Origin: Limnomonas spitsbergensis
Taxonomy: Eukaryota > Chlorophyta > Chlorophyceae > Chlamydomonadales
NCBI GenBank assembly: GCA_037349105.1
Contig: JAYJMM010000038.1
Location: forward strand, 3,756,501 to 3,820,500
DNA: 64,000 nt
Direction: 5' to 3'
Every line of letters begins with the position of its first letter. Position 1 is the stretch's first letter. The notes under the pieces were generated by a model. The model was not told where the DNA came from. It saw nothing but the letters and a program-made list of their open reading frames with translations, and made no database searches. Shown here piece by piece: positions 32,201-60,300 of the stretch. The position numbers and the translations under genes were made by a program.

Positions 32201-35200
32201 GCCCCCCCGCCCGGCATCCACCTGCTACGCCGTCATCCTGTTGAATTGTGGGCCTAAGTAGGAAAATAGGAGCAAATGGCTGGGGGAAGGGGAAAACGGA
32301 AGTGGGGATAAAACCTGAACAGGGAAGGAGAGGGAAAAGGAGCTCTTTTGGGACTCAGCAACTGTGGGTCTGTCTCCACATTTGCCCCTGGAGAGATTTG
32401 TAAATGATGCATTCCCGCAGATTCAGGACATGTGACCCCAGAATAATAAAGGCCACGTCTAATTAATTACAAAATAGTCCTTTAGCATGTTGGTGGGCCT
32501 GGGGCCATGTGTTCCTTTAAAAAGATCTTACGCCCTAACAAACTGATCTTACACCCTAACAAACTGATCTTACACCCTAACAAACTGATCTTACGCCCTA
32601 ACAAACTGATCTTACACCCTAACAAACTGATCACAATTCGCTCTTCACAACCCTAAGCCGCATTGACCGGGGTACCCACTTCCCTGCCCCGTCCACCCCC
32701 CCCGCCCCTTTTACCTTGATGTGTTGCTGAGCAGGTCGGACAACGTGCTGCAGCTTGTACACGAGCGCATGGCATGCCCGCTGATTGTGCTGAAGAAGCT
32801 GGAGAACGGCAGCCTCCCCGACGCCGTGGTCGGTGTGGACCCCTACTACTACGGCTTCCAGGTAGGCTTTGGGCGAGGGTTCAGGGCCCAGGGGTTCAGG
32901 GCCCAAGGGTTCAGGGCCCAGGGGTTCAGGGCCCAGGGGTTCAAGGCCCAGGGGTTCAGGGCCCAGGGGTTCAGGGCCCAGGGGTTCAAGGCCCAAGGGT
33001 TCAGGGCCCAGGGGTTCAGGGCCCAAGGGTTCAGGGCCCAGGGGTTCAGGGCCCAGGGGTTCAAGGCCCAGGGGTTCAGGGCCCAGGGGTTTAGGGCCCA
33101 GGGCTTCAGGGCCCAGGGGTTCAGGGCCCAGGGGTTCAGGGCCCAGGGGGTTTAGGGCCCAGGGGTTCAGGGCCCAGGGGTTCAGGGCCCAGGGGTTCAG
33201 GGCCCAGGGGTTCAGGGCCCAGGGGTTCAGGGCCCAGGGGTTCAGGGCCCAGGGGTTCAGGGCCCAGGGGTTCAGGGCCCAGGGGTTCAGGGCCCAGGGC
33301 TTCAGGGCCCAGGGGTTCAGGGCCCAGGGGGTTCAGGGCCCAGGGGTTCAGGGCCCAGGGGTTCAGGGCCCAGGGGTTCAGGGCCCAGGGGTTCAGGGCC
33401 CAGGGGTTCAGGGCCCAGGGGTTCAGGGCCCAGGGGTTCAGGGCCCCGGGGGTTCAGGGCCCAGGGGTTCAGGGCCCAGGGGTTCAGGGCCCAGGGGTTC
33501 AGGGCCCAGGGGTTCAGGGCCCAGGGGGTTCAGGGCCCAGGGGTTCAGGGCCCAGGGGTTCAGGGCCCAGGGGTTTAGGGCCCAGGGGTTCAGGGCCCAG
33601 GGGTTCAGGGCCCAGGGGTTCAGGGCCCAGGGTTTCAAGGCCCAGGGGTTCAAGGCCCAGGGGTTCAGGGCCCAGGGGTTCAGGGCCCAGGGTACATGCC
33701 TGCGTAAACCCTGCATCTCGCAGCACCTTGCTTGCCCTCCTTTGTGTCCCCACACAAGAAGTGCGCAAAAATGGGCCCATGGGTTCCCAAACTCGCCCTG
33801 TCTTGCTCACCTTCATCGTTTAGGGTTACGGGTTTAAGGGTTCATGGGTCCTTTCGTGCATCTCGCAGCCGTGTATGCGCCCTTCTATGCCTCCCTGAAT
33901 CCGCCCTCTCGTGTGTGTACCTCGCAACACTGTCTTTGCCATGCTTTGTCTATCCCAAAGCCCCGTCCTGCCTCCTCAAACACGCCTTGCCTTACTTTCC
34001 TGCCCCCTCCCCCTTTCGTGCATGCATCTTGTAGCGCTGTGTCCCCCCCTCTATGTCTGCGCATGTGTGCAAGGTGTCCAGACAAGCTCTCTCAAATGCG
34101 CCTTCCTGCCCTCCCCTTTCGTGTATACATCTTGCAGCGCTGCGTATGTTCCCCGGGGACAACACCGGTCACGACCAGCGACGTTTCGGGCTCTGTGACC
34201 AGCCTGCTATGTCAGGAGGTGCGAAGGAACCTGCGGGACTTGGGGCTGTGGTGCTGGGAGGAGAGGGGGGGCGGGGCTAAGAGGGGTGTGGGGAGGGCTG
34301 TTGAGGGTTTTTAAATGAATGCAGGGATGGTTTTTAAACGAATGCTTTCACCTTGGATTTGAATTGCCTGCCCTCTGGCATGGCTTTCTTATTTTGTTTC
34401 CTTCAGTGCTGCTCCTCTCCTGTCAAACAAGAGACCAAGCCTCTTAATTTTTGACTATTAACGGATGCCGGTGGTCGATAACAGCACCTGAATTGCCTTC
34501 CCTCGCGCATGATTCGATTATTACCTTCCAGTGCTGTCCTCCTTTCGACCGAAAGGCCGAGACTCTTGATTTCACGACCATCATACTTGCTATGCACACC
34601 CTCTCCACGCCCCTCACGGGCCTCTCTCTCGACCCTTCACGCTCTCACATCGCCCCTAATCCTACACCCTCACACAGGCCACCGTCACACAGGACTTTTC
34701 ATGGTAGAAAACTTTGCTCCGTCTAGTGAAGCCCTTAACCCTGAACCCTCCCCGGCTACCCCTGAACCCTGAACCCTCCCCGGCTACCCCTGAACCCTCC
34801 CCGGCTACCCCTGAACCCTGAACCCTCCCCGGCTACCCCTGAACCCTACCCAGCTTCCCCTGAACCCTGAACCCTCCCCGGCTACCCCTGAACCCTACCC
34901 AGCTTCCCCTGAACCCTGAATCCTCCTTGGCTACTTCTGAACCCTGAACTCTCCCCGGCTACCCCTGAACCCAAAACCCTCCCCAGCTACCCCTGAACCC
35001 TGACCACCGCCCCCCCGCAGGCCGGTCCAGACGTCCGCGGCTCCCCCTCCCCGTCCAGCATCAGCTGGTACCTCCCGTTTGCGATCGTGATGGGCGTGAC
35101 GCTGCTCCTAGCCGCTGTGCTGGGCCTGCTGTGGTTCAAGCTTCGGCCAAAGCTGCGGGCGCTCAAGAAGCTAGACAAGGCAAAGCTGATGGCCCCCGGC

Positions 35201-38200
35201 AGCGGGACACCGGGTCAGGCGGTGACGCTGGTGCTGACGGATGTGGAGGGGAGCACGGAGCTGTGGTGGGTGCCTGGTTGTCGTATGCAGGAGGGGGGGG
35301 AGGGTGCTTCCTGGGTGGTGGGAATGGGCAACACGTGGCCTGGTGGTTTACGCTGGTGCTGATGCTGATGCTGCCCCTGCTGGCGTGATGGGAGTAGGAC
35401 ACAGAGATCTTGTCGTTGCTGCCAATGTTGCCAAGACCAGCGCTGAGTCCAATTTGAATGCCAATTCCTGCTGTCAGTGCTCCCTTTGCAGTGTGCTGGG
35501 AGTGGAGCACTGCGACCGCGTCGCTGCTGCCAATTTCACCATGGCCACTGCTGTCAATGCCCATGCCGATTCCTGATGCAAATCTTCCCCTTTTCTGTGT
35601 GCAGGGAGTGGGACACGGAGATTGTGTCTCTGGCTATCGACATGCACGACAAGTGAGTTGCACTCTTGAAGCACCTTCCTCGTTTTTAGGGTTCAGAGGC
35701 CATTCGAGGGTGAACAGGAATCGGGGGTTAGGGTAAAAAGGCATTTTGGGGGCCTGGGAGATCAGGAGAATTGGGATGATAAAGCAAATCTCAGATGTCT
35801 GGGACCCTGGGAAGATTTGGGGCCTGGAGGATATTTGGGTTCTGGAGGATATTTGGGGTGGTAAATAAAGCGAATAGTACTTGGACCATCGGACGAGTAT
35901 GGTGGGCTGATGGTGGATGAGGATGTGGCGACGACGGTGTGATGCTGTTGAGAATTAGGTGCTGGTGTGGAGAATCAGTTGGGGGTCAGTTGAGCACCAT
36001 GCAACCAGTCAAAAATCAGTTGGGGATCAGTTGAGCACCATGCGACCCGTCAACACTCTGTTCATAATCAGTTGAGGATCTGGCGACCGGTCGAGACTCG
36101 AGAGGCCGTTGAGAATCAGGCGACCGGTCAAGCAGCTGTTGGGGGCTTAAGGCAACCGGAATGCGATGACCCTAATGCCTTAAACACTTACATCCCTGAC
36201 CCCAGAGCCCATTGCTTGCCCCCGCAGGCTTGTGCGCGCCTTCTTGACCAAGTTCAACGGCTATGAAGTCATGACAGAGGTGTGTTTGGAGGGGGGGGGT
36301 ATGGTAAGAGGCTTTGGCCTGTGGGTTAGGGTGGGGATATGGTATGAGGCTTTGTTTCGTTATCTAAATTCCAGGCTCTGCTAGCCCTTGAACCCGTCTG
36401 GGTTTAAACCCTGAGCGCCAAGTCCGGGTAAAAATCCAGAAGCCCGTGCCAAGGTTAAAACTTTTACCTACAAGTTGGGGTTAAACTCCTGAAACCCGAG
36501 CCAAGGTTATAACCCTAACCTAAAAGCCTGGTTTTAAACTCTTGAGCCCCAAGCGGCTATGGAGTCACATTCCATATTGATGGGTGCAGTGTTTTTTCGT
36601 GACTTAGTAGCATGGCAGCTACACTCCAGCCCCTGGCCTGCGGCCCCATGTGTGGTCAGCCATGCTGCTTTGGCCACCAGTCGTAGGCCGGGCCAGGTTT
36701 GGTCCCAATCGGGCCTGTAGGGGCAGCGGGGCGGCCAGCCAAAGGTAGCCTAGTAGCTGGAGAAAGGGGTGGGGTTCTGGGGATGCATGTTGCAGCCGCG
36801 GGGCTGCCTGCCAAAGGGGGCGTCTTGTGGCCGTAAAATAATCAATGGGTCGTTGGTGCAGCGGCAGGGCTTACGATGGTAGTGGGAGCAAGATGCCGGG
36901 GCCTCCCAAACACTCGCAGTGTGTTCATGTGCCAATGAGGGGTAGGGCAGAAGATCTCACGCGGATGGTATGAGATCACAGGGAAGGCAGGAGATCCTAC
37001 GGATCTGGCATGGATCTGCTCAATCTCACATGGCCCCCCTCCCCCTACTGTGTCGTTTCAACTCAATCCAATATTATGCTCCTCCCTCCCCCCTGCTGTG
37101 CTTTTACTTTGCCGTGCCCACAGGGAGATGCCTTTTTAATCAGGTGAGGAGAGTGTGTGTGTGTGTGTGGTGGTTGGGGGAGGCACATAAGGGGAAGTGG
37201 GGGCCCAGGGGGGGCTTCTGAGGTCAGGGGGGAGGGGGGGGGAGGCAGACAGTGGAGGGTTTAGGCTTCAGAGGTGGGGGAGGTGGGAAGCCCCAGAGGT
37301 GGGTGGGGGGCAGCCGGGGAGGGGTTTAGGCTTCAGAGGGGGCAGGGGGCAGAGGGGCGGAGGGGTTCAGGGCCTAGAGGGGGGGGGGTGGAGTTAGGCC
37401 TCAGAGGGGTGGAGGGGTTGTGTCAGATTGGCTGAGGCTTAAGGAACGCAGAGCTGTGAATTTTTGACCGCTTGTGTCCTTGTCGAGCCATGCGATTTTG
37501 ACCGCTTGTACCTACTAAAGAGAAAACGGGAGGGGGACAACAAAAGATTTTATTATTTGTGTCTCGCAAAGATTATAACTGTACTGATGTGTTTTCCCGA
37601 GCGCATGACGAGGAAGAGTGTGGGCTTGATGTGTGTTGTGGGTGCAAATTAGGCCCCTGTGGGCTGACATGCCCAATGCTATAGATGCTCCTCCGCCAAG
37701 CCCTCTCACGTGCACGCGCACACACACACCTCACACATGAGCATGCAAGCACCTGTTCCCCACTAGGCAGCCGCTTCTACTTTCCGTCTCTTGTAGATCG
37801 TCCATGAGCAGAGGATACCTGCTGAAGCATCCCTCCACCCCCCTCCCTCCACCCCCCCCCCCCCCTCCAGCCCCCTTTTTTCCTTCTCTTCTCCATGGCA
37901 TATATGCCTGCTGAAGCGTCCCTCCAACCACCGATTTCCCCTCTCTTTGCGTTGGCATATAACTAATATAAGCAGAGGATGCCTGCTGAAGCGTCCCTCC
38001 ATCCTCCTGTTCCCTCTCTTCTCGTTGGCATATAAGCAAAGGATGCCTGCTGAAGCGTCCCGCCATCCTCCTGTTACCTCTCTTCTCGTTGGCATATAAG
38101 CTAAGGATGCCTGCTGAAGCGTCCCTCCATCCTCCTGTTCCCTCTCTTCTCGTTGGCATATAAGCAAAGGATGCCTGCTGAAGCGTCCCTCCATCCTCCT

Positions 38201-41200
38201 GTTCCCTCTCTTCTCGTTGGCATATAAGCAAAGGATGCCTGCTGAAGCGTCCCGCCATCCTCCTGTTCCCTCTCTTCTCGTTGGCATATAAGCAAAGGAT
38301 GCCTGCTGAAGCGTCCCGCCATCCTCCTGTTCCCTCTCTTCTCGTTGGCATATAAGCTAAGGATGCCTGCTGAAGCGTCCCTCCATCCTCCTGTTACCTC
38401 TCTTCTCGTTGGCATATAAGCAAAGGATGCCTGCTGAAGCGTCCCGCCATCCTCCTGTTCCCTCTCTTCTCGTTGGCATATAAGCAAAGGATGCCTGCTG
38501 AAGCGTCCCTCCATCCTCCTGTTCCCTCTCTTCTCGTTGGCATATAAGCAAAGGATGCCTGCTGAAGCGTCCCGCCATCCTCCTGTTCCCTCTCTTCTCG
38601 TTGGCATATAAGCAAAGGATGCCTGCTGAAGCGTCCCGCCATCCTCCTGTTACCTCTCTTCTCGTTGGCATATAAGCAAAGGATGCCTGCTGAAGCGTCC
38701 CGCCATCCTCCTGTTCCCTCTCTTCTCGTTGGCATATAAGCTAAGGATGCCTGCTGAAGCGTCCCGCCATCCTCCTGTTCCTTCCCTTCTCGTTGGCATA
38801 TAAGCAAAAAATGCCTGCTCAAGCGTCCCGCCATCCTCCTGTTACCTCTCTTCTCGTTGGCATATAAGCAAAGGATGCCTGCTGAAGCGTCCCTCCATCC
38901 TCCTGTTACCTCTCTTCTCGTTGGCATATAAGCTAAGGATGCCTGCTGAAGCGTCCCGCCATCCTCCTGTTCCTTCCCTTCTCGTTGGCATATAAGCTAA
39001 GGATGCCTGCTCAAGCGTCCCGCCATCCTCCTGTTCCCTCTCTTCTCGTTGGCATATAAGCAAAGGATGCCTGCTGAAGCGTCCCTCCATCCTCCTGTTC
39101 CCTCTCTTCTCGTTGGCATATAAGCAAAGGATGCCTGCTGAAGCGTCCCGCCATCCTCCTGTTCCATCCCTTCTCGTTGGCATATAAGCAAAAAATGCCT
39201 GCTCAAGCGTCCCTCCATCCTCCTGTTCCCTCTCTTCTCGTTGGCATATAAGCAAAGGATGCCTGCTGAAGCGTCCCGCCATCCTCCTGTTCCCTCTCTT
39301 CTCGTTGGCATATAAGCAAAGGATGCCTGCTGAAGCGTCCCGCCATCCTCCTGTTCCCTCTCTTCTCGTTGGCATATAAGCTAAGGATGCCTGCTGAAGC
39401 GTCCCGCCATCCTCCTGTTCCCTCTCTTCTCGTTGGCATATAAGCAAAGGATGCCTGCTGAAGCGTCCCGCCATCCTCCTGTTCCCTCTCTTCTCGTTGG
39501 CATATAAGCTAAGGATGCCTGCTGAAGCGTCCCGCCATCCTCCTGTTCCCTCTCTTCTCGTTGGCATATAAGCAAAGGATGCCTGCTCAAGCGTCCCGCC
39601 ATCCTCCTGTTCCCTCTCTTCTCGTTGGCATATAAGCAAAGGATGCCTGCTGAAGCGTCCCGCCATCCTCCTGTTCCCTCTCTTCTCGTTGGCATATAAG
39701 CAAAGGATGCCTGCTGAAGCGTCCCGCCATCCTCCTGTTCCCTCTCTTCTCGTTGGCATATAAGCTAAGGATGCCTGCTGAAGCGTCCCGCCATCCTCCT
39801 GTTCCCTCTCTTCTCGTTGGCATATAAGCTAAGGATGCCTGCTGAAGCGTCCCGCCATCCTCCTGTTCCCTCTCTTCTCGTTGGCATATAAGCAAAGGAT
39901 GCCTGCTGAAGCGTCCCGCCATCCTCCTGTTCCCTCTCTTCTCGTTGGCATATAAGCTAAGGATGCCTGCTGAAGCGTCCCTCCATCCTCCTGTTCCCTC
40001 TCTTCTCGTTGGCATATAAGCAAAGGATGCCTGCTGAAGCGTCCCGCCATCCTCCTGTTCCCTCTCTTCTCGTTGGCATATAAGCAAAGGATGCCTGCTC
40101 AAGCGTCCCGCCATCCTCCTGTTACCTCTCTTCTCGTTGGCATATAAGCAAAGGATGCCTGCTCAAGCGTCCCGCCATCCTCCTGTTCCCTCTCTTCTCG
40201 TTGGCATATAAGCAAAGGATGCCTGCTGAAGCGTCCCGCCATCCTCCTGTTACCTCTCTTCTCGTTGGCATATAAGCAAAGGATGCCTGCTGAAGCGTCC
40301 CGCCATCCTCCTGTTCCCTCTCTTCTCGTTGGCATATAAGCAAAGGATGCCTGCTGAAGCGTCCCGCCATCCTCCTGTTCCCTCTCTTCTCGTTGGCATA
40401 TAAGCAAAGGATGCCTGCTGAAGCGTCCCGCCATCCTCCTGTTACCTCTCTTCTCGTTGGCATATAAGCAAAGGATGCCTGCTCAAGCGTCCCGCCATCC
40501 TCCTGTTACCTCTCTTCTCGTTGGCATATAAGCTAAGGATGCCTGCTGAAGCGTCCCGCCATCCTCCTGTTCCCTCTCTTCTCGTTGGCATATAAGCAAA
40601 GGATGCCTGCTGAAGCGTCCCGCCATCCTCCTGTTACCTCTCTTCTCGTTGGCATATAAGCAAAGGATGCCTGCTGAAGCGTCCCGCCATCCTCCTGTTA
40701 CCTCTCTTCTCGTTGGCATATAAGCAAAGGATGCCTGCTGAAGCGTCCCGCCATCCTCCTGTTACCTCTCTTCTCGTTGGCATATAAGCTAAGGATGCCT
40801 GCTCAAGCGTCCCGCCATCCTCCCGTTCCCTCTCTTCTCGTTGGCATATAAGCAAAGGATGCCTGCTGAAGCGTCCCGCCATCCTCCTGTTACCTCTCTT
40901 CTCGTTGGCATATAAGCAAAGGATGCCTGCTGAAGCGTCCCGCCATCCTCCTGTTACCTCTCTTCTCGTTGGCATATAAGCAAAGGATGCCTGCTGAAGC
41001 GTCCCGCCATCCTCCTGTTACCTCTCTTCTCGTTGGCATATAAGCAAAGGATGCCTGCTGAAGCGTCCCTCCATCCTCCTGTTCCCTCTCTTCTCGTTGG
41101 CATATAAGCTAATGATGCCTGCTGAAGCGTCCCGCCATCCCCCTCCATCCCTCCTTTTCCCCTTATTCAGCTTCCACAACCCCTTTGACGCCGTGGCGTG

Positions 41201-44200
41201 GTGCTGCGCTACCCAGCTGGCGCTCCTTAGTGAGTGGTGGCAGGCAGTGGGCTGCTGGGATGGGTCATCGGTGATGTATCCTTAATACACTGCAGATTTG
41301 CTTGGCCTTCCCTCGCAATTAACGGTGCTGGGGGTTGAGGAATCCATGAATCATTGATTGTCGATGCCAATGTCCAGTCGAAGATTAAGAGCTTTTGTCG
41401 ACTGTGTGCCCTGAGAGCAGCATTAAAATAAATAATGTGTTGATGCCCGTGGGAAGGCAAATCAAATCTACAGCACTTGTGTAAGGACCCGCCTCTATTG
41501 ATCATACCTTTGAGAAACGTGTTGATATGTCTATACCCTCAACCCTCAACCCTCAACCCTGACTGCCCTGACCCCTCCCTGCACCGCAACCCTCAACCCT
41601 TAACCCCTCTCCGCCCTGACCCCTACCTGAACCTCAACCCTCAACCCTCAACCCCTCCCGTGCAGACTGCGACTGGCCGGAGGCGCTGTTGCAGGCGGCC
41701 AAGGCGGGCGTGCAGACAGTCTCTGAGCTGGAGGCCGCCCACGTGACCATGCTAGCGGAGCGGCTGGGTACCTCCAGCCTGTTCTCTGGGTGGCCGCAGG
41801 GCGCAGCATTCGACGCAAACGCGCTGCAAGCGGCACTACCACATTCGGGCAGGTGGGTGTTGTGCAGCGGGTGGGGAAAGAGGCAGGGAGGGTGGGGCGG
41901 GTGAAGTCTTGATGCTCAAGTCTAATCCATATGGGCGGCGGGTTCTGGCTCAGGACTTGGACCTGAAACCTTAACCCTAGTGGCGGTTGTGTGTGTGGGG
42001 GGGGTAGGACTTCATCTTAAACCCTGTTGTACGATTTTTCGCACTGTGACATGTTACCGGGATTCCTTCAGTCCTGAGCGACTGCGCGCCGCTCGAAGGC
42101 CATCAATTCTTGAATATTGTGTATCAGTACGCGCCGTACCCGGTCCTGACTGAAACTACTCTTCTGAACCCAGCCCACCGGTGACAACGCGGATGTGGCT
42201 TCGGCCCAGGCTGCGCTGTTTTCTTAACTCTCACGCTCCCCACGGGGTGTAGCTTTCTTCCTTCCTTTGCATTCAGCCCACCCTGTTTGTGTACCAGAAG
42301 CCCAGTGGCCATGAAAGCCGTATTGCATGCTGCCTGCGACGGACTGTAGCTCGCTGCCCCCTGTTTGTGTCCCTTTTAGTTTGTAGCAGGGGCTACGGCT
42401 TTGCACCCGCCACCGATTCTCAACTAATTCTGAACTGATCATGAGTACCGGTACTTTCTTTTTCATTCTTAACCCTGCCTCCCCCCTTGCCTGAGGGCCT
42501 GGTGACAGGGGCCACAGGATCGCGTCGGCCACCGATTCTGGAGTAATTTAAAACCATGTATTGACAAATTCTCAACCCTGCCCACCCTACCGGTATTCGT
42601 GGACCTTGTGACAGGGGCCACGGCATAACATGCACCACGGAATCTCTCAATCATTTCTTAACTGATTCCCAACCATCTCTGAACCAATTCTTTAACCGGC
42701 CCCCCCCCCTGCTTGCGGGATTTTTGACAGGGGCCACGGCATCGAGTCCAACGCCGATTGGGACCGGTTCACACGGCTGGGTGTCATCTTCAGAGGTGTG
42801 AGAGCTGGGCTCAGGTCCTAAGGCTAAGGGGGGGGAGGGGGTATCAACAGAGATGAGAAAGCTGGGCTCAGGAGATCAGGCTGGAGGGGGTATATTCAGA
42901 GGTGCGAGAGCTGGGTTCAGGTCCTAAGGAGGGGTCATTTTTAGTTGTGCGAAAGCTGAGCTCAGGTCCTAAGGCCGGGGAGGGAGGGGGTATCTTCTGA
43001 GGTGAGAGAGCTGATCTCCGGAGATCAGGCTGGTGTGTGGGCGGGTGACCGCCCTGAACCCTTCCTGAACCCTACAACCTCAAACCTTTGTGAGGACATC
43101 AGGCTGGTGGGTGGGTTGGTGTAAGGCAGTTCGAATTGTGAAGGCCCGTGTCGTGCCTTGTGGCAGCTAATAGCTCCTAATACATATAGGGCCGATTCAC
43201 GAGGTTGGGTGTCATGCTGTCATGCTCAGATGAACGTGCGTTACCAGCTGTTTAGTTATTACTTGTTACCGGCATGGCCGTTTGGACCACCGAAAGGGCT
43301 GTACCGCACCCGTACCGGATCGAAACGGCCGCGGTTGGTGAAGCAAGAGAAACGAATAATTAGTATTTTCCTGAAGTCATGTTTGCGTTGGGTATCGGTC
43401 AGGGAACTGGGAGCCGATCAGGTTTTGAGCCCAGATCGGCCAAGGGAATAGAAACGGGCTCGGTAAAACCCTGGTCTCAACGCCAGCCTAAACCAGACGA
43501 CCCTTTTTAGACCCGCGGCTCGGCTATCAGTGTTCCTGGTAGGAGTCTGCGTCAGGGTTTCATGCTGTGCGCCTGTGTCCCCTGCGCAGGCTTGAGGGTG
43601 CGCATGGCCGTCGCGACTGGCGTCACAGACCTCATGCAACTGCATCCGGTGAGGTTTGAGGATTTTCGCATGGCACCTGTCCTGCCCCTTTCCATGCCCC
43701 GCACCTCTCTCCTCCCTGCTCCCCTCCCTGCACCCATCACCCTGTACCCCCACCTGTGTCTGCCTCTTTCTATCACCGCAGGTGACGCACCGCATGGAGT
43801 ACTTTGGGCAAGTGACACGGCGGGCGCAGGCGGTCTCGGAGCTCCCCAGCGGAGGCCAGGTGGGGGGCAAAGAAAAGGGTGTAGGCAAAAATGATCCCTT
43901 TTTGTATGTTGGGTTTATGGATTTGGATTAGGGCTCGCCTGGTATAGTGTTTAGGGTGCCGCGTGTGGCCCCGCTTGCATTCCTTGGAAATGCCAATCGA
44001 TTTTGGAGCTGCTGATGCCCTGGGTGCATCCTTAAAACTGCCGGTACCAGTAATGAAACACACACATCAGGTATTACTGCTGTCACCCCTCTTGCATCGT
44101 TCGAAATGATTCGAAACATTGCGACTGCTGTCGCCCCGCCCAGGTCCTGATCGACTCGGAAACTTTCAAGGGCATCAACGCACAGCTCAACCGGTTGAGC

Positions 44201-45297
44201 ATGGCGGTCACCACTGCTGTCGGCTCCAAAACGGTGGCCAAGGTGTGTGAACTGCCGACCTGTGACAGTGTGACCCAAGGGTGTGACGTATGTACTGCGT
44301 CAGCAGTACGTTGGTCCTGATCTGGGCAGGACTGTCAGTTTCACACAAAGTCATACTTATTGCACTAGTGTGCGACCTCCGAGGGTTCTGGATGGGTGTT
44401 TAAGTATGAAGAGGGGAAATCGCATGGAGGTTATGTGTCCATGGGGCACGCGTCTGCCTGGGCTCCTAAGTCACAGTGTTCCTCTCCCCTCCCCGTCTGC
44501 TGTGAGCTTTATGGAGGTCTTCGATCTTCATTCCCTGCCTCTCTGTACGAGCGCGCATGGATTGTACAAGATCTAGGTTCCTCGTGCATTGCATGAGATC
44601 TTTCACCTAGATCTCTTGCCCCTGAAATATGTATTAATATATCCTGACCCTGCATGTCCCTGGGTTCCCCGTGCATGGCAAGATATCTTAGATCTATCTC
44701 TTGTCCCTGTCCCTCATATCTAGATCTCATGTACACGCTTTTCAGGCACCGGGTTCCTTGTGGCTCGCCCGGCCCTCGATGTCCCTCAACGGCACCCAAG
44801 AACACCCGCAGCCACGATTGAGCCTCATGGCCCGCTCGTCCTACCTCATGCGTCAGTCGGCGCAGCTCGCATCGGCGCCGATGAGCACGCCGCGGGGCGC
44901 CAGTCGCGCAACCCTGTCCAAGGTGCGGAAGGCCCCAGACACGATACAACGCGTGCCGAGATCGGCCTGGCCTATGCGACGATGGGAACGTGTTCGGGCT
45001 TTGATTGATTGTTGAATGGACACCATCTCTGCTCAGGAAAGGCTATGGGTGGTTTCGTTAGTCTTGTGCATCATGACCCGGATGTCCCTGCTCCATGCGT
45101 CGTCACTGCGTGCTTCCTCCTCCCGCAACAGCTCGTAGAGGGCATGCGGCAGTTGAACGACCGCATCCTTACTCGGAGGCCTGTTCCATGGCTTTCTCGC
45201 ACTGTCTGCTTTTCAGTTCCCTCAGCTTGAAAAGGACCTGCACGCGTACACTCACAAGGTTCATGCACACAAGCATGCCAACAAATGATCCTTGCTT

Positions 45298-45337
<40 letters not shown>

Positions 45338-48300: not shown

Positions 48301-51300
48301 GACCCCTGGTACCTTGTACCGACGTAAAGAATCCCGGGCTTTCCCCCCCTTGGTCCCTCCTGACCTTTGGCTCCTCGTACCGACGTAAAGAATCCCGGGC
48401 TTTCCCCCCCTTGGTCCCTCCTGACCCCTTGCACCTTGTACCGATGAAAAGAATCCCGGGCTTTCCCCCCCTTGGTCCCTCCTGACCCCTTGCACCTTGT
48501 ACCGATGAAAAGAATCCCGGGCTTTTCCCCCCTTTGTCCCTCCTGACCGCTGGTACCTCGTACCGACGTAAAGAATCCCGGGCTTTCCCCCCCTTGGTCC
48601 CTCCTGACCCCTGGTACCTCGTACCAATGAAAAGAATCCCGGGCTTTCACCCCCTTGGCCCCTCCTGACCCCTGGCTCCTTGTACCGATGAAAAGAATCC
48701 CGGGCTTTCCCCCCCGTTGGTCCCTCCTGACCCCTGGCTCCTCGTACTGACGTGAAGAATCCCGGGCTTCCCCCCCATTGGTCCCTCCTGACCCCTGGCA
48801 CCTTGTACCGTCGTAAAGAATCCCGGGCTTTCCCCCCGTTGGTCCCTCCTGACCCCTGGTACCTTGTACCGACGTAAAGAATCCCGGGCTTTCCCCCCCT
48901 TGGTCCCTCCTGACCCCTGGCTCCTTGTACCGATGAAAATAATCCCGGGCTTTCCCCCCCTTGGTCCCTCCTGACCCCTGGCTCCTCGTACTGACGTGAA
49001 GAATCCCGGGCTTCCCCCCCATTGGTCCCTCCTGACCCCTGGCACCTTGTACCGTCGTAAAGAATCCCGGGCTTTCCCCCCGTTGGTCCCTCCTGACCCC
49101 TGGTACCTTGTACCGACGTAAAGAATCCCGGGCTTTCCCCCCCTTGGTCCCTCCTGACCTTTGGCTCCTCGTACCGACGTAAAGAATCCCGGGCTTTCCC
49201 CCCCTTGGTCCCTCCTGACCCCTTGCACCTTGTACCGATGAAAAGAATCCCGGGCTTTCCCCCCCTTGGTCCCTCCTGACCCCTTGCACCTTGTACCGAT
49301 GAAAAGAATCCCGGGCTTTTCCCCCCTTGGTCCCTCCTGACCCCTGGTACCTCGTACCGACGTAAAGAATCCCGGGCTTTCCCCCCCTTGGTCCCTCCTG
49401 ACCCCTGGTACCTCGTACCAATGAAAAGAATCCCGGGCTTTCCCCCCCTTGGCCCCTCCTGACCCCTGGCTCCTTGTACCGATGAAAAGAATCCCGGGCT
49501 TTCCCCCCCTTGGTCCCTCCTGACCCCTGGCTCCTCGTACTGACGTGAAGAATCCCGGGCTTCCCCCCCATTGGTCCCTCCTGACCCCTGGCACCTTGTA
49601 CCGTCGTAAAGAATCCCGGGCTTTCCCCCCGTTGGTCCCTCCTGACCCCTGGTACCTTGTACCGACGTAAAGAATCCCGGGCTTTCCCCCCCTTGGTCCC
49701 TCCTGACCTTTGGCTCCTCGTACCGACGTAAAGAATCCCGGGCTTTCCCCCCCTTGGTCCCTCCTGACCCCTTGCACCTTGTACCGATGTAAAGAATCCC
49801 GGGCTTTCCCCCCCTTGGTCCCTCCTGACCCCTGGTACCTCGTACCGACGTAAAGAATCCCGGGCTTTCCCCCCCTTTGTCCCTTCTGACCCCTGGCACC
49901 TTGCTCCTCTGCCCATACAACTAGGTGGTGGATTGCGGGATTTTTAGACTGCAGGCGGGTGGCGAGGTTGAGTTCAACGACATCATCCAGGTCAGTGTGT
50001 AGGGGGTTAGGGTTAGGGTTTAAGGGTAGGGTTCAGACTGCAGGCGGGTGGTGAGGTTGAGTTCAACGACATCATCCACCTCTATCCATTCCAAAACATC
50101 ATTATGCTCCTGATATTATTATTTATTACAATTGTATGTCCATATACTACGTACTGGACCGTCGCACGGCCGGCCGCCCGAGCAGTTGGAAGCTCAAACC
50201 CCTCAGTCACCCAAAACCCTCATATGCCCTTAAACCACCATTAAACCACACTGACACCCATGTCCTGAAACTCCCCAAAACCCTAAACGAAAAGAAACCA
50301 CCCCACCCCACCCCACCCCACCCCACCCCTCTTTCCCCAGGTCCTGGTCCCTGGTTTGGAGGAGCGTGCTCGGTTCCTGCCCCATCTGGAGCGGAGGGGG
50401 CAGCTGACTCCCGGATACCTGGACGCACCGGCCACCGCGCTAGCGCCCCTCGGCCCTGTGGACCATGTGGGCAAGCGAGCCTATCCAGACATCACGCTGG
50501 TGTTCTGCGCTTTGCACAAGTGAGCGCAGGGATGGGGGGTGGGAGGAGGTGCTTGAGGGCAGTGTGAGGGAGAGGGGCTCCATTTGAGGGATAAGGGTCG
50601 CAGGCTCCTCGGCCCCGTGGACCCTGTCGGCAAGCGCGATTCTCCCGTTATAACGCTCGTGTTCTGCGCGTTGCACAAGTGAGTGCGGGGATGGGGGGTG
50701 GGAGGAGGTGTTGGAGGGCAGTGTGAGGGAGAGGGGCTCCAGTTGCAGGTGGTGGGATGAGGCCCCATGGACCCCGTCGGCAAGCGCAATTCTCCCGATA
50801 TAGTGTTCTGCGCACTGCACAAGTGAGTGGCTTGGGTGGGGAGGGGGAGATGTTTGGGTGGGGAGGGGGAGGTCAGCGAGGGGGGGGGGGGCTCCAGTTG
50901 CAGGTGGTGGGATGAGGCCCTGTGGGCACCGTTGGCAAGCGTGCGCGTATCCCTACTCCCTAGGTATCACTAGTGAGAGGGTGGACCATCGGTAGCAAGC
51001 GGCGGGTTGTGGGTTGCCAGCGCCCGAGCAGCACGTCGTGTTTTATGTTCTTTGCGGTGCAGGAGCGAGCTGCGGGGGGAGTGGGACATGCAGTTGCAGA
51101 GTGGCGGTCCGGCACATCAGATGCCCATACCTGATAGTTGACCCCTGAGCCCGACCCCTGGACCTGAAAGCCCAGGCGCAGAGGAACGAGATGAAATGTT
51201 GAGGCCTGGTATCTACTTGGCACTCGTCCCTCCCACATCACCTGCGCACCAAGGTGCTGCGAGATGCCCCCCCGTCACACCAGGCAAACCTGACCCCTGA

Positions 51301-54300
51301 ACCCTGCATCCTGACCCAAAACCCTGAACCCTGCATCCTGACCCAAAACCCTGAACCCTGCATCCTGACCCAAAACCCTGAACCCTGCATCCTGACCCAA
51401 AACCCTGAACCCTGCATCCTGACCCAAAACCCTGAACCCTGCATCCTGACCCAAAACCCTGAACCCTGCATCCTGACCCAAAACTCTGAACCCTGCATCC
51501 TGACCCAAAACCCTGAACCCTGCATCCTGACCCAAAACCCTGAACCCTGCATCCTGACCCAAAACCCTGAACCCTGCATCCTGACCCAAAACCCTGAACC
51601 CTGCATCCTGACCCAAAACCCTGAACCCTGCATCCTGACCCAAAACTCTGAACCCTGCATCCTGACCCAAAACCCTGAACCCTGCATCCTGACCCAAAAC
51701 CCTGAACCCTGCATCCTGACCCAAAACCCTGAACCCTGCATCCTGACCCAAAACCCTGAACCCTGCATCCTGACCCAAAACCCTGAACCCTGCATCCTGA
51801 CCCAAAACCCTGAACCCTGCATCCTGACCCAAAACCCTGAACCCTGCATCCTGACCCAAAACTCTGAACCCTGCATCCTGACCCAAAATCCTGAACCCTG
51901 CATCCTGACCCAAAACCCTGAACCCTGCATCCTGACCCAAAACCCTGAACCCTGCATCCTGACCCAAAACCCTGAACCCTGCATCCTGACCCAAAACCCT
52001 GAACCCTGCATCCTGACCCAAAACCCTGAACCCTGCATCCTGACCCAAAACCACGTACTCGCTGGTTCTCTGACTAGCCCCCCCCCCCCCCCCGGTTGTC
52101 CTGTGAGCACACCAGACACAGCCCTAAACCCTTACCCTGAACCCTACACTTAAACCCTCAACCCTAGCCCTCCAACCATAACCCATAGCCCTGAACCCGC
52201 AGGTGCTCTGATACGCCCTCCTTTTAGGTCCACACCAGACACAGCCCTAGACCCTTAAACCTCACCTTGAACCCTGAACCCGCAGGTACTCTGGCATGCC
52301 CCCCTTGTAAGTCCACACCAGAAACAGCCGTTAACTCCGACCCCTAAAACCTCACCCTGAACCTTGAAGCTTGAACCCGCAGGTACTCTGATACACCCCC
52401 CTTTCAAGTCCACACCAGACACAGCCCTAAACCCTAAAACCTCACCTTGAACCCTGAACCCTCAGGTACTCTGATATGCGCTCGTTGGACGCTCTTTTGG
52501 CGCGTAGTGTGCTGAATGTGTACACAGATACAGTGCGGAGGTCGCTCATGGTCATGGGAGGATACGAGTGTCAGGTGAGGGGGGAGGGGGGAGGGGATAG
52601 GAAGGGGGGGAGGTGTAGAAAGCAATGAGGGGTGTGAGGGGGGAGGGAGGGGGGAGGGGATAGGAAGGGGGGGAGGTGTAGAAAGCAATGAGGGGTGTGA
52701 GGGGGGAGGGAGGGGGGATACTAAGGAGGGGGTGAGGGGGAGAAAGTAATGAGGGGTGTGAGGGGGGAGGGAGGGGGGATACTAAGGTGGGGTGGAGAGG
52801 ATGCTGCGGGGGTGATTTGGAGAGGACAATTAAGGAGGTGGGGTGGAGAGGATGCTGCGGGGGTGATTTGGAGAGGACAATTAAGGAGGTGAGGGGGAGA
52901 GGATGCTGCGGGGGTGATTTGGAGAGGACAATTAAGGAGGTGAGGGGGAGAGGATGCTGCGGGGGTGATTTGGAGAGGACAATTAAGGAGCTGAGGGGGA
53001 GAGGATGCTGCGGGGGTGATTTGGAGAGGACAATTAAGGAGGTGGGGGGGAGAGGATGCTGCGGGGGTGATTAGGAGAGGTCAATTAAGGAGGTGAAGGG
53101 GAGAGGATGCTGCGGGGGTGATTTGGAGAGGACAATTAAGGAGGTGGGGGGGAGAGGATGCTGCGGGGGTGATTTGGAGAGGACAATTAAGGAGGTGGGG
53201 GGGAGAGGATGCTGCGGGGGTGATTTGGAGAGGACAATTAAGGAGGTGAGGGGGAGAGGATGCTGCGGGGGTGATTTGGAGAGGACAATTAAGGAGGTGG
53301 GGGGGAGAGGATGCTGCGGGGGTGATTTGGAGAGGACAATTAAGGAGGTGGGGGGGAGAGGATGCTGCGGGGGTGATTTGGAGAGGACAATTAAGGAGGT
53401 GGGGTGGAGAGGATGCTGCGGGGGTGATTTGGAGAGGACAATTAAGGAGGTGGGGGGGAGAGGATGCTGCGGGGGTGATTTGGAGAGGACAATTAAGGAG
53501 GTGAGGGGGAGAGGATGCTGCGGGGGTGATTTGGAGAGGACAATTAAGGAGGTGGGGGGGAGAGGATGCTGCGGGGGTGATTTGGAGAGGACAATTAAGG
53601 AGGTGGGGGGGAGAGGATGCTGTGGGGGTGATTTGGAGAGGACAATTAAGGAGGTGGGGTGGAGAGGATGCTGCGGGGGTGATTTGGAGAGGACAATTAA
53701 GGAGGTGGGGTGGAGAGGATGCTGTGGGGGTGATTTGGAGAGGACAATTAAGGAGGTGGGGTGGAGAGGATGCTGCGGGGGTGATTTGGAGAGGACAATT
53801 AAGGAGGTGGGGTGGAGAGGATGCTGCGGGGGTGATTTGGAGAGGACAATTAAGGAGGTGGGGTGGAGAGGATGCTGTGGGGGTGATTTGGAGAGGACAA
53901 TTAAGGAGGTGAGGGGGAGAGGATGCTGCGGGGGTGATTTGGAGAGGACAATTAAGGAGGTGAGGGGGAGAGGATGCTGCGGGGGTGATTTGGAGAGGAC
54001 AATTAAGGAGGTGGGGGGGAGAGGATGCTGCGGGGGTGATTTGGAGAGGACAATTAAGGAGGTGGGGTGGAGAGGATGCTGCGGGGGTGATTTGGAGAGG
54101 ACAATTAAGGAGGTGGGGGGGAGAGGATGCTGCGGGGGTGATTTGGAGAGGACAATTAAGGAGGTGGGGGGGAGAGGATGCTGCGGGGGTGATTTGGAGA
54201 GGACAATTAAGGAGGTGGGGGGGAGAGGATGCTGCGGGGGTGATTTGGAGAGGACAATTAAGGAGGTGGGGGGGAGAGGATGCTGCGGGGGTGATTTGGA

Positions 54301-57300
54301 GAGGACAATTAAGGAGGTGAGGGGGAGAGGATGCTGCGGGGGTGATTTGGAGAGGACAATTAAGGAGGTGAGGGGGAGAGGATGCTGCGGGGGTGATTTG
54401 GAGAGGACAATTAAGGAGGTGGGGGGGAGAGGTTGCTGCGGGGGTGATTTGGAGAGGACAATTAAGGAGGTGGGGGGGAGAGGATGCTGCGGGGGTGATT
54501 TGGAGAGGACAATTAAGGAGGTGGGGGGGAGAGGATGCTGCGGGGGTGATTTGGAGAGGACAATTAAGGAGGTGAGGGGGAGAGGATGCTGCGGGGGTGA
54601 TTTGGAGAGGACAATTAAGGAGGTGGGGTGGAGAGGATGCTGCGGGGGTGATTTGGAGAGGACAATTAAGGAGGTGGGGGGGAGAGGATGCTGCGGGGGT
54701 GATTTGGAGAGGACAATTAAGGAGGTGAGGGGGAGAGGATGCTGCGGGGGTGATTTGGAGAGGACAATTAAGGAGGTGGGGGGGAGAGGATGCTGCGGGG
54801 GTGATTTGGAGAGGACAATTAAGGAGGTGGGGGGGAGAGGATGCTGCGGGGGTGATTTGGAGAGGACAATTAAGGAGGTGAGGGGGAGAGGATGCTGCGG
54901 GGGTGATTTGGAGAGGACAATTAAGGAGGTGAGGGGGAGAGGATGCTGCGGGGGTGATTTGGAGAGGACAATTAAGGAGGTGGGGGGGAGAGGTTGCTGC
55001 GGGGGTGATTTGGAGAGGACAATTAAGGAGGTGGGGGGGAGAGGATGCTGCGGGGGTGATTTGGAGAGGACAATTAAGGAGGTGGGGGGGAGAGGATGCT
55101 GCGGGGGTGATTTGGAGAGGACAATTAAGGAGGTGAGGGGGAGAGGATGCTGCGGGGTGATTTGGAGAGGACAATTAAGGAGGTGGGGTGGAGAGGATGC
55201 TGCGGGGGTGATTTGGAGAGGACAATTAAGGAGGTGGGGGGGAGAGGATGCTGCGGGGGTGATTTGGAGAGGACAATTAAGGAGGTGAGGGGGAGAGGAT
55301 GCTGCGGGGGTGATTTGGAGAGGACAATTAAGGAGGTGGGGGGGAGAGGATGCTGCGGGGGTGATTTGGAGAGGACAATTAAGGAGGTGAGGGGGAGAGG
55401 ATGCTGCGGGGGTGATTTGGAGAGGACAATGAAGGAGGTGAGGGGGAGAGGATGCTGCGGGGGTGATTTGGAGAGGACAATTAAGGAGGTGAGGGGGAGA
55501 GGATGCTGCGGGGGTGATTTGGAGAGGACAATTAAGGAGGTGGGGGGGAGAGGATGCTGCGGGGGTGATTGGACAGCATTGGACAGCATTGGACATGTGA
55601 AGTTTCCAAGTTTGTCACAATATAGCTAGGTGTCCCAATGTGCTTTGGGTCTGCTCGCCTAAGAAAGCTCCAGGTTCGCCCTGGCACAGGGCTCTGGCTG
55701 AACGCGGTTGGATTTCCTTTCGCCCTCCGAGTGCTGCATGTGGATGGATTTCTTTCATTTGTGTCCCCTGGGCTTGTTTGATCTCTTCGTTTTCTAATGC
55801 TCTGCTCTGCTGCTGTGTGTTTGTAGGAGCTGGAGGGCGCCTTCATGATTGCATTTGAAAAGCCGGACGATGCGGTGGAGTGGTGCCTCATGCTGCAGGA
55901 GGTCATGATGGATGTGAGAGGACGGCAGATAAGAGGAGGGGGACGGGGGGGGGGGGGAGAGGAGAGGAGGGGGAAAGGAGGAGGGAGAGGAGGGGGGAGG
56001 AGGGGGGTAGTGCCTCATGCTGTAGAGGCGATGCCGCTGTGTGATTTCATGATGAAATGTATGGGTGATGAGACACACGAAGAAGAGGTGTAGGCTCATG
56101 GGCCTGTGCTATGCATGCTGGCATGCCATCCAAGCCACCAAGGCAGGCCCCCACATATGCTGAACCCCAGACCCAATTTGCGCAATTAGGTTCCCTGGAG
56201 GTCCTTCTGCTACCCGAGTGTGGCCATGGGCATCTAATATGCATGATATACATTCCGTGCTCCCATTGAAGCCACCAAAGCATGCCCACAAAGGCGCTGA
56301 GACCCAAACCCCATTTGTGTTATCAGGTTCCCTGGACCCCGGAGGTCCTTCTGCTACCTGAGTGTGGTGAGGTGGCAGGCCCGGGCTCCAGGGAAATGAT
56401 GTGGTGTGGACCGCGTGTGAAGATGGGGGTCTACAAGGGCATGCCCGCCAAGGTGAGGGAGGGGTGGTATGTGTTGATGCTGCTGTTGTTGCTGCTGCCC
56501 CTCATGCTTCTGATGCTGCGGCTGGTATTTGCTGCTGCTACTGTTGTTGTTGCCCCTGATATTGCTGTTACTTTTGTGGTTGTTGCCGGTGGTGTTGCCG
56601 ATGCTGATATTGTTAATGTTGATGCTGCTGTGGCTGCTGCTGATGCTGCTGCTTTAGTCTGTTGTTGTTGCTGCTGCTGCTGCTGCTATACTCTGTTGTT
56701 GTTGCTGCTGCTGCTGCTATTGTTGTTGCTTCTGATCCTTCTGATACTGCTGCTGGTAGATGTTGCTGCTACTGTTGTGATTGTTGCCGATGCTGCCGTT
56801 GATGCTGTTGATGCCTCTGTGGCTGTTGCTGATGCTGTTGCACACGTTGCTGTCGCTGTAGGTCACCCCTCACAGTACCACTGGGAGAGCAGATTACTTC
56901 GGGCCTTTGGTGAACCGCGCGGCGCGCTTCTGTCACGCAGCGGCACAGGGCGGGCAGGTAAGCCCTCTGGGTGCAGTAGGGGATGGGGGGCATGTAAGCC
57001 ACGCTGGGTGCAGGAGGGGATGGCGGGGCATGCTGGGTATGTTGTCCCCTTTGGCTGCAGGTGGTGGTCTTCCAGGCAGGGAATACTTTGCCTGATTTCA
57101 AAGATCCCGGTATGAGGGAAAATATAATCCAATGTGGTGCAACGCCCCCTTGGTAGGAGGTGGGTGTGTGCCGGGGTACTTCAACCTTGGTTCAAAGATT
57201 CCGGTGTGGGGGGACAAGTAACCCAATGTGGTGAATCCCCCCCCCCCAAGGTGCCTGTCACTAGGGGGGTCGGACTAGTTCCTTGACACCCCCCCGGCTT

Positions 57301-60300
57301 ATAATGTGACCTTATGGTTGGTGCATTAGCACACGAAAGAATCGACTGGCGTCCAGGACTTTAACCACCGAATACAAAATGGAACATCGCTTTTTACCTG
57401 GCCGATTATTTGTTGTGCAAAGGCTCCAACTGGGCACTGAAAGCCACTATTTTGGGGACTAGGCCGACCCCGCAGTGAGTAGTGACAGGCACCTTCCCCC
57501 CCCCCCCCCCCTAGTGTTGCAGGTGATGGTGCGCCGGGCACTTCAACCTTGGTTTAAAGATTCAAGGTGGTGGAGGAAATTGTGGAGGAAACAATAATCT
57601 GAATGGCAAATTTGTCCTTCCCCCCTCCACCCTGGTTGCAGGTGGTGGTGTCACGGGACCTGATGGAGGATGTGCTAGAGCGCTGGGTGGGTAGTGAAGG
57701 CCTGCAGCAGGCGGGGCGAGCGCTGAAGACACAGGGGCTCAGCTGCCCAGCAGCCCAAGTGACTGCAAGATGCTTCCGGGCCGAGGTGAGCAAGATTGCG
57801 AGTGAAGGGGGGGGCAGAATGGGGGGGATGCAGGGAGAGTGGGTAAGGAAGGAAAGGAGGGAGGGAGGGAGAGGGGTAAGGGAGAAATGAGCGTGGGTGA
57901 AGAGGGGGAGGATGGAGAGGAGGAGAAGGGAGGATGGAGGGGGGGAGGGAGGGCTAGGAGAAAGGAGAGGGGTGCAGTAGGAGAAAGTTAGAGGGGGGGG
58001 GGGGTGAGAGGAGGAGGAAGAGGGGTCCAGCAACAGAAAGGGAGAGGGAGAGGGGCAATCTTTGGCTCTGCCAAACTTATCCCTCGAAATCTCCAGAGCT
58101 TGGCTGATAAAAACCGCAAAGTCTCTTTTTGGCTTTGCCAAAGAAAAGCTCAAAAAGTGTTCATCTTTGGCAGGGTCCTTAAGGAGAAACCTCGATATTT
58201 CGAGTCCCCGCCCCCGCCACTCCCCCTGCCTGCAGGAGAAAGCGCCCCTTGTCGAAATTCTCGAAATGTCCCCGGCCCCGCCGTTCAAACCCGCCTGCAG
58301 GAAATGCGCCCCTTATGGATGATGCCCAAGGATCACAACGCGTATGTCACCGCCTCGGGTCACCCGGTGTCCCGCTGGTGCAGCCTGAACATGCATGGAG
58401 CAGCAACCGGAGGGGGAGGAGCAGGGGGAGGGGCAGGGACCTCGCTGGCCATGCAGCAGACAGCAGCGGCAGCATCGGCGGCGGCTCCCGCCGCGGCGCC
58501 GTCACTGTTAGTGGCTGGCCCGCCCGACTCCCGCTCGAGGGAGAAGAGCGGCGGTTCGAACACGGTGGAGAAGAGCGGCGTCAGCTACAGGACTTTGCTG
58601 ACAGGCTTGTCAAAGGTGAGGGCCTGCCAATGAGTCGAAGCAGGTAAAGGTGGTATGCCCTTCACCCTTTGTGACAGGCCTGTCGAAGGTAAAAGGGCCT
58701 GCCAATGGGTTGAAGTCTACTGCCCCCCCTTGCTTAATCTTATGGTCTTTGGGGTCCTGGGAAAGAGGAAGGGTCCCAAGAAAAAGCGACTTACAAGTTT
58801 ATAATCTAAAACCCTTTTCCTGCATGGGCGGTGTCGACCATGCAGGCACTTGTCTTATTCCTCATAATAATGCTAAGGTGGCATGCCCTGAACCCTTTAG
58901 GATGAGCCTCTTGAAGTTAACCTAGTTGAAGGGGAAAGCCCTCGATGAGTACAGGGTTTGGGTGGCAATCCCTCAACCTGTTGGGAAATAGGCCCGGATG
59001 TATAGGAAAGCAGTACCGGTACTGAAAAGCCTCCCTTGATTGTTTTGCTGCTTGCCCAGGTGATGAAGAAGGGTCGCTACAAAGGCAGCACCGACAATCT
59101 GGCCGCCGCCGCCGCCGCCGCTGAGACGCCGACGGCGGCTGCTGGGAGCTACACCCGCCCTTATAACCCGCCTTCTCACTCACCCACGCTTGCACGGGCC
59201 AGCGATTTCGCACCCACTTCGAGAACCAGCACCAACAAAATTGGCATTTTGGAGCCGCGCAGGCGCTCGCAGGCGCCATCCTATCGGCAGGAGGGCAGCG
59301 AGGCAGCGGCGGCGGCGAGAGACGTCTCTACATATGGCCTGAGCTGTTCTGAGGTCTCGGTCAGGCGCGCCAGTAGTGGCCTGCTGACAACGGGGAACGA
59401 CCAGCTGGATCTGATAAGCACGACAACGACGGTGGCCATGCCGACAGCGGCAGCTCCGCCGCCGCCGTCACCATCGATGGCGTCGACCGTCGCGCTGCTA
59501 CGCGGCGTGCGCGCCGCGACGGTCGCGCAGCAGCGCCACCTGGAGACCGCCGCGAGCCCGTTCGTCCTCGCGCTCGAGGCCGCGTTCACGTCGAGCGCCG
59601 GCGACCGAAGCTCGTACACGGCGGTTGCGGCGACAGCTACGATCAAGTCTGGGAAGGGATCCCGAGCCGAGGCCTCGCTGTTCTTCTCACCATCCCGGCT
59701 GTCTGAAACCGGGCCACAGGGCCTTCTGCTGGACCCGCAGAACCCGCAGCAGCAGCAGCCGGACCAGCAGGAACCGGCACAGCAGGGGGGGCAGCCGGGT
59801 CTGCAGCCGGTGCCCCGCGTCCAGGTCAGCCGCGTCGGGAGCGTCCGCTCGTTGCGCAGCTCCACCACCTGCACGGACATCAGGCAGTTGATCCAATCGC
59901 AGAAGTTTGACCGGATGCACTCGGGGGGGTGCAGCAGCAGCCCGTCCAACAGCGGCTCTCTCCCCAGGGGCAGCGCCTTGCAGAGAGATTGTCACCTCGC
60001 CAGCCCCCCTCTGCTGCCAATCAGGTGCGGCCGCCCCGCCCCGCCGGACCCTCCCATCCCACGCTATTGAGGTATCCCACCACATGCCTGTTCCCGCTAT
60101 AAAAATGTGTGACTGCCCTGCCCTGCCCTGCCTCGCCCCGCCCGCCCGCCCTTTGCTACCGAGGGCCTGTCCCATCACCCACCCCTCCCTCCTGTGGGAT
60201 CTTCCCGCCACCAGCCCATCACCAGATCCGTAACCACCCGCTGATAAGGTGCGTGCCTCGCCTGCCCCGCCCCGCCCTGCCACCCACCAAACCAAGCCCT

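Follow-up and report, generated by a model that had tools for sequence, protein, structure and literature searches.

A candidate leucine-rich repeat receptor of a green alga with two half-complete cyclase domains that may share one active site

Can two cyclase domains, each deprived of a different part of its catalytic residues, make up one complete active site within a single receptor? The question is raised by a plus-strand gene of the green alga Limnomonas spitsbergensis (Chlorophyta; Chlorophyceae; Chlamydomonadales). The gene lies in the window analysed here, a stretch of 64,000 nucleotides covering positions 3,756,501 to 3,820,500 of contig JAYJMM010000038.1 (assembly GCA_037349105.1). 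The predicted product contains, in this order, a probable signal peptide, a plant-type leucine-rich repeat (LRR) ectodomain, a transmembrane (TM) helix, a first cyclase domain (C1), a linker, a second cyclase domain (C2) and a long tail. According to the available text of a review (PMC5632652), the cyclases behind the cyclic nucleotide signals of green algae, such as those of gamete signalling and nitrate assimilation, remain elusive. Judged from its sequence, the gene probably encodes a single-pass receptor in which C1 and C2 form together one active and one dead site.

The available part of the paper on Chlamydomonas CYG12 (PMC2576301) divides the residues of one active site between two monomers, with two metal Asp and the triphosphate Arg on monomer A and the Asn, the transition-state Arg and the Lys of the beta7-beta8 hairpin on monomer B. 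All six positions are present in the algal product, three on C1 (D601, D644 and R757) and the complementary three on C2 (N1222, R1226 and K2192). Five of the opposite six carry substitutions, and no counterpart of the Lys was found in C1. The role of R757 is the one given in that part of the paper (PMC2576301) and its match to the position was inferred by alignment. At least one partner (C1) holds both metal Asp and at least one (C2) holds the Asn and the Arg, which corresponds to class III cyclases. The metal Asp occur in C1 only and the Asn/Arg in C2 only, which is the arrangement of the animal transmembrane adenylyl cyclases (tmAC).

The first-pass annotation of this DNA had proposed such a division, and the loss of opposite catalytic halves in C1 and C2 is confirmed by the alignments of the predicted protein. 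D601 and D644 were found exactly where they had been numbered. The Asn and Arg described as missing from C1 are lost under both alignments: in the one with the trypanosome enzymes GRESAG 4.1/4.3 the two positions are occupied by R785 and A789, respectively, and in the C1/C2 pairwise alignment, with a one-residue gap, by T784 and Q788. C2 retains the VNRAAR motif and has A1094 and G1137 at the positions of the metal Asp (a one-residue shift would put Glu1136 at the second of them), again as proposed; the N1242/R1246 of the earlier numbering are N1222/R1226 here, a 20-residue offset that comes from another exon model. Functional Asp in C2, or Asn/Arg in C1, were obtained in none of these alignments. 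The description of the base-selecting pair also stands, with the Asp kept (D1215) and the Lys replaced by Gln (Q1133). The pairs Gln1133/Asp1215 of C2 and Met640/Glu778 of C1 are not standard ones (Lys/Asp or Glu/Cys). R757 in C1 and K2192 in C2 are two further residues that follow the same split and go beyond the earlier description.

The assignment of both domains to the cyclases was supported by several comparisons. Pfam searches, which the first-pass annotation had suggested, returned Guanylate_cyc (PF00211, cut-off 21.9 bits) for C1 alone (43.9 bits, 2.6e-11) and for C2 alone (23.5 bits, 4.8e-05), and LRR_1 and LRR_8 for the ectodomain. C1 and C2 match each other pairwise at 5e-14. The closest solved cyclases to both are GRESAG 4.1/4.3 (1fx2, 1fx4), at 2.1e-22 for C1 (GRESAG 4.3) and 1e-05 for C2, and no animal tmAC was found among the single-sequence solved-structure matches of either domain. 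The closest sequence found is a bacterial one, which over its best segment (query residues 2-136) is 47% identical to C1 (locus L001). It belongs to a set of 41 bacterial loci (L001-L041) chosen for their resemblance to C1 and with the help of patterns that came from C1, C2 and the trypanosome enzymes; these fetching patterns allowed K/M/Q at the selecting Lys and D/G at the second Asp. The profile was built from 34 of the 41 relatives, the other seven having too little sequence after the match, and gave E-values, calculated for a single target, of 2.1e-42 for C1 and 9.5e-36 for C2, which are optimistic because of the way in which the loci were chosen.

Seven positions were tabulated for each bacterial relative, namely the two metal Asp, the triphosphate Arg, the Asn, the transition-state Arg, the selecting Lys and the selecting Asp. 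All seven are intact in 37 of the 41; in L023 and L024 an Arg is replaced by Asn, in L028 the Asn by Ile, and in L032 a Gly is aligned with the first Asp. None of the 41 lacks both Asp and none lacks both Asn and Arg. Each of the 41 bacterial open reading frames (ORFs) holds one cyclase domain, some of the ORFs ending at the locus edge. The scans for relatives were confined to prokaryote and viral collections: no close relative of C2 was found in the prokaryote genome contigs and none of C1 or C2 in the viral contigs, against which the domain alignment was also searched with no relative found. In a tree of C1, C2, the two trypanosome domains and the 41 bacterial ones the branches are long, and the join of C1 with the trypanosome enzymes is possibly false. 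Two of the bacterial loci (L014 and L018) lie on contigs of metagenome-assembled genomes titled Klebsiella pneumoniae; their cyclases group with environmental proteobacterial and myxobacterial ones, and the labels look doubtful.

The residue that completes the C2 half would come from the distal end of the polypeptide. The tail exons 28-32 encode approximately 890 residues, rich in A/S/P/G and inserted in the C2 fold, for which Pfam returned no match. The bacterial profile gave a third match at residues 2180-2215 (0.0013), collinear with the end of the C2 core match, and a model of its C-terminal part alone scored 10.6 bits at residues 2179-2213 (1.7e-05 for a single target). When only the tail was searched the score was 11.9, the maximum for shuffled tails was 4.6 and none of 1000 shuffles reached the real score. 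The hairpin lies about 920 residues downstream of the C2 core, with K2192 about 970 residues from R1226, and it reads correctly over the splice junction. The corresponding Lys column holds K in 24, R in nine and N in one of the 34 bacterial sequences. That a hairpin with K2192 has been retained beyond a tail of about 900 residues is what selection on the C2 fold would lead one to expect. For C1 the bacterial profile found no Lys hairpin. A candidate for the last strand of C1, at the end of the linker, is weak: it scores -4.0 bits in the full protein, and 29 of 1000 shuffled linkers reach the 0.2 bits of the real one.

Several results weigh against one active site shared by C1 and C2, in addition to the selection of the bacterial loci. 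C2 is strongly diverged (branch length 3.2, with 1.8 for C1) and has Gln at a position where every one of the 41 bacterial relatives has the selecting Lys. Joining the hairpin to C2 brought no gain with Pfam (23 bits, the same as with two control pieces, out of four made) or with the solved trypanosome enzymes (1.4e-05 vs 1e-05), which leaves the bacterial profile as the single source of the hairpin assignment. The score of Ma1120 (4wp9) did move, from 0.02 to 0.0029, but the extra aligned residues are at the artificial join, outside the hairpin. Adding the linker end to C1 had as little effect (structure score 1.2e-22 vs 2.1e-22, Pfam bits unchanged, linker end unaligned). Finally, the claim is drawn from one genome.

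The divergence of C2 and the Lys-to-Gln change at the base-selecting position would suit a catalytically dead pseudo-cyclase, whose C1/C2 dimer serves only as a scaffold or nucleotide sensor. We regard this as unlikely, given that six catalytic positions, K2192 included, survive in a complementary manner that random decay would hardly have kept. The same Gln may instead bear on the product. An active pseudo-heterodimer that makes cyclic guanosine monophosphate (cGMP), or is not strict for its nucleotide, is a variant compatible with the shared site and has a small though real chance. In its favour counts the mycobacterial cyclase Rv0386, which works with a Gln/Asn pair. On the other side, C2 retains D1215 of the Lys/Asp adenine pair and lacks the Glu/Cys pair that is given for guanylate cyclases in the available part of PMC2576301.

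In the mechanism that we favour, C1 and C2 would pair head to tail, as in the animal adenylyl cyclases. One active site would be formed by D601, D644 and R757 of C1 and by Q1133, D1215, N1222, R1226 and K2192 of C2, and the mirror-image site would be dead and possibly regulatory. A ligand or partner bound to the LRR ectodomain may shift the C1/C2 geometry via the helix and thereby switch the production of the cyclic nucleotide. The product would more likely be cyclic adenosine monophosphate (cAMP) than cGMP, since the selecting Asp is kept; Gln1133, in the place of an otherwise invariant bacterial Lys, makes the substrate less certain. Pairing within one chain and pairing between the two chains of a receptor dimer would both fit. 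A further arrangement is an obligate heteromer, in which C1 and C2 dimerise with domains from other cyclase paralogues and not with each other. Partners would exist, as green algae have many cyclases (more than 100 in Chlamydomonas in the available text of PMC5632652), and the pairings are indistinguishable from the sequence itself. Such a heteromer appears improbable to us because the complementary halves stand in one reading frame, so that the simplest partner is another copy of this product.

The ectodomain is that of an LRR receptor. Pfam searches on residues 1-1284 gave LRR_1 at 7.1e-15 and LRR_8 at 1.2e-09, and an LRRNT_2-like cap scored 17.1 bits, under the Pfam cut-off of 20.7. Among the best 60 of 153 matches, the nearest solved structures of the ectodomain are plant LRR receptor kinases (GSO1 1.1e-78, FLS2 9.2e-75). 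The TM helix is the highest of four hydropathy peaks of at least 1.4 and the single strong one; the weaker peaks lie within the LRR (residues 270-288, 1.8), in the Ala-rich tail (1960-1978, 1.6) and at the N-terminus (16-34, 1.4), the last of which probably acts as signal peptide. An LRR ectodomain followed by a single TM helix, as the first-pass annotation had it, is also the layout of the LRR receptor kinases. No protein kinase model appeared among the Pfam matches of residues 1-1284 or of the tail. The order signal peptide, LRR, helix and cyclases would place the cyclases inside the cell.

The gene model extends from ATG to TGA, with 33 exons, 32 introns and a coding sequence of 6762 nt for 2253 amino acids. 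The exons were anchored by hand and by script, and the splice sites were picked by eye for GT-AG and frame, so that neither the 32 GT-AG introns nor the one open frame over 2253 codons is an independent test of the model. Independent support is provided by the G+C content at third codon positions (GC3), which peaks in the assigned frame in 29 of the 33 exons, and by homology and conserved motifs that continue correctly over the exon junctions. GC3 is 0.76 (intron G+C 0.56), and the spliced sequence contains 80 and 41 stops in the two other frames. The 34 exons counted earlier are thus 33 in this model, and the earlier span, 35021-57785, proved too short at both ends: it starts at the TM exon and ends in the C2 region, which leaves out the ectodomain (from 26267) and the tail, with the segment at 62416-62859 that completes the C2 fold. 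A candidate extra C2 exon after position 51063 was rejected, given that this stretch, read by eye, hits a stop and that the direct joining of 50519 to 52466 keeps the frame and yields an ungapped profile alignment.

The reading of the locus as one gene, also proposed at first pass, agrees with the single frame through all 33 exons. It could be objected that two adjoining genes, LRR-TM-C1 and C2, were wrongly joined. A 4.2 kb intron, mostly minisatellite (45744-49954), separates the C1 part from C2, exon 21 has only 36 nt, and TGTAA, the algal polyadenylation signal, is present once, at 49788, within this intron. No TGTAA was found from the stop codon to the window end. Two genes are nevertheless very improbable, as the exons fit together in one frame and the weak match to the C1 end stops in exon 22, where C2 begins. 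Furthermore, no in-frame Met occurs between residues 994 and 1101, and a separate C2 gene that started in exons 21-22 could therefore not include the first beta strand.

Several known systems can be compared with this protein. In the animal tmAC, the metal Asp come from C1 and the Asn/Arg from C2, in the same domain order as here, and the membrane part consists of two six-helix cassettes. The algal protein differs in having one strong TM helix and an LRR ectodomain, a C2 interrupted by about 900 residues and Gln at the base-selecting Lys. It would resemble the tmAC in the mutual supply of residues by the C1/C2 pair, with one active and one dead site, as set out in the available part of PMC2576301. 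GRESAG 4.1/4.3, the solved cyclases nearest to both domains, also differ from it, as two incomplete complementary domains and LRRs are found here. The trypanosome receptor-type cyclases are single-pass receptors with an intracellular cyclase and a different ectodomain, and in GRESAG 4.1/4.3 the one catalytic domain is complete and forms a dimer with a copy of itself. The bacterial class III cyclases (Myxococcota, Riflebacteria, Wallbacteria, Planctomycetota and others) are the closest sequences found and share the DLGxHRLKG hairpin, but they carry one domain per ORF, in most cases with the tabulated residues complete. The plant LRR receptor kinases (GSO1, FLS2, PEPR1 and others), which have a signal peptide and one TM helix, share the type of ectodomain, and here the cyclase pair replaces the kinase. 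In AtBRI1, by contrast, the guanylate cyclase centre lies within the kinase region, as described in the available text of PMC5632652.

Among algal proteins, the gene probably belongs to the same broad family as the green-algal multidomain cyclases. Similar two-domain cyclases probably exist in volvocine algae, and the RNI-like partner of algal cyclases is presumably of the LRR type. For Chlamydomonas, over 100 annotated cyclases are listed in the available text of PMC5632652, where they fall into more than 20 combinations of domains and have 13 partners, one of them RNI-like. Algal cyclases with LRR-like partners are already mentioned in print; that text gives neither an LRR-TM-C1-C2 layout nor a complementary site, and the complementary C1/C2 split would be what is new here. 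The available part of a land-plant CAPE paper (PMC5159850) mentions chlorophyte sequences with a cyclase domain. No LRR receptor with two complementary cyclase domains was found among the listed titles and abstract openings of the mostly open-access literature searched.

The split leads to predictions that can be addressed by mutation: neither D601 nor R1226 should be dispensable, and no activity is expected from C1 or C2 by itself. The receptor would present an animal-type pseudo-heterodimer on a single-pass LRR protein, built from domains that are closest, among the sequences compared, to bacterial and trypanosome cyclases. A wider proposal is that of a self-contained, ligand-gated adenylyl cyclase, in which an LRR sensor and an internally paired C1/C2 convert a surface signal into cAMP with no G protein or kinase, the animal-type division having been reached independently and C2 being completed by the distal end of the polypeptide. 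As a whole this is put forward tentatively and remains doubtful. If the ligand gating holds, the cyclases that generate algal cAMP signals, for example in gamete activation, might be sought among such receptors. The coordinates are collected in Table 1.

Table 1. Features of the cyclase receptor gene, in window positions
Feature	Position	Strand	Remark
Coding region	26267..62982	+	33 exons, 2253 aa; single open frame
Exon 1: signal peptide, LRRNT-like cap (residues 83-123), first LRRs	26267..27080	+	
Hydrophobic N-terminal stretch, residues 16-34, probable signal peptide	26312..26368	+	hydropathy 1.44 over 19 residues
Exons 2-6, LRRs	28184-28285, 28973-29086, 30528-30637, 31145-31248, 31815-31943	+	LRR_1, LRR_8 matches
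Exons 7-8, ectodomain end and Cys-containing juxtamembrane stretch	32735-32861, 34138-34218	+	
Exons 9-13 (TM helix, C1)	35021-35265, 35605-35652, 36228-36279, 37124-37143, 41171-41229	+	
TM helix, residues 548-566	35081..35137	+	mean Kyte-Doolittle 2.5 over 19 residues
C1 cyclase domain, residues 594-812, exons 9-18	35219..44185	+	loop insertion between its two halves
C1 D601, metal Asp 1, kept	35240..35242	+	alignment
C1 D644, metal Asp 2, kept	37127..37129	+	alignment
Exons 14-18 (C1)	41666-41852, 42731-42795, 43590-43648, 43782-43859, 44144-44242	+	
C1 R757, beta4 triphosphate Arg position, kept	43601..43603	+	alignment
C1 helix EYFGQVTRRAQA, Asn and transition-state Arg positions lost	43797..43832	+	
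Linker exons 19-21, continuing into exon 22	44746-44922, 45339-45743, 49955-49990	+	
Candidate last beta strand of C1, residues 1035-1046 (IIQVLVPGLEER), over exon 21/22 junction	49982..50367	+	weak
Exons 22-27 (C2 core)	50341-50519, 52466-52574, 55827-55913, 56327-56452, 56862-56957, 57642-57785	+	
C2 cyclase core, residues 1087-1261, exons 22-27	50488..57716	+	bacterial profile, Pfam
C2 A1094 (VFCAL) at metal Asp 1 position, lost	50509..50511	+	
C2 Q1133 at base-selecting Lys position	52572..52574	+	
C2 G1137 (ELEGAF) at metal Asp 2 position, lost	55836..55838	+	
C2 K1194 at triphosphate Arg position, conservative change	56420..56422	+	
C2 D1215, base-selecting Asp, kept	56892..56894	+	
C2 N1222 and R1226 (NRAAR), kept	56913..56927	+	
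Tail exons 28-32	58301-58615, 59060-60024, 60423-60799, 60992-61176, 61576-62450	+	
C2 beta7-beta8 hairpin, residues 2179-2213 (VHDLGLFRFKG), over exon 32/33 junction, holds K2192	62416..62859	+	
Exon 33 with K2192 (62794-62796) and stop (62980-62982)	62790..62982	+	

Six introns of the gene each carry a large minisatellite, all with different units: 29430-30055 (32 nt x 19), 32877-33692 (15 nt x 54), 37966-41144 (64 nt x 50), 46269-49903 (61 nt x 60), 51295-52052 (27 nt x 28) and 52785-55570 (51 nt x 55). The 3' half of exon 22, with the VFCALHK codons and the splice donor, is tandemly duplicated downstream (50445-50872) in a 159-nt unit, the second copy being 82% identical and the third shorter. 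The FCAL codons are present, by eye, in each copy, and alternative use would therefore not restore the Asp. Exon 23 has further copies of its acceptor side (CAGGTACTCTGATA) upstream (52108-52487, with spacings of 83 and 97 nt), which form decoy acceptors.

Other ORFs were found in the window ahead of the gene. Long proline-rich (SPPPP) ORFs with Cys-containing ends occupy 890-2399 on the minus strand and by eye resemble algal cell-wall proteins; Pfam gave no significant match for them. A GIY-YIG nuclease-like ORF lies at 24780-25157 (5.4e-04, 20.7 bits, under the cut-off of 22.6). A PIF1/AAA-type helicase-like ORF at 17052-18653 (AAA_30 1.3e-05, 25.4 bits, just under the cut-off of 27) is possibly part of a mobile element.

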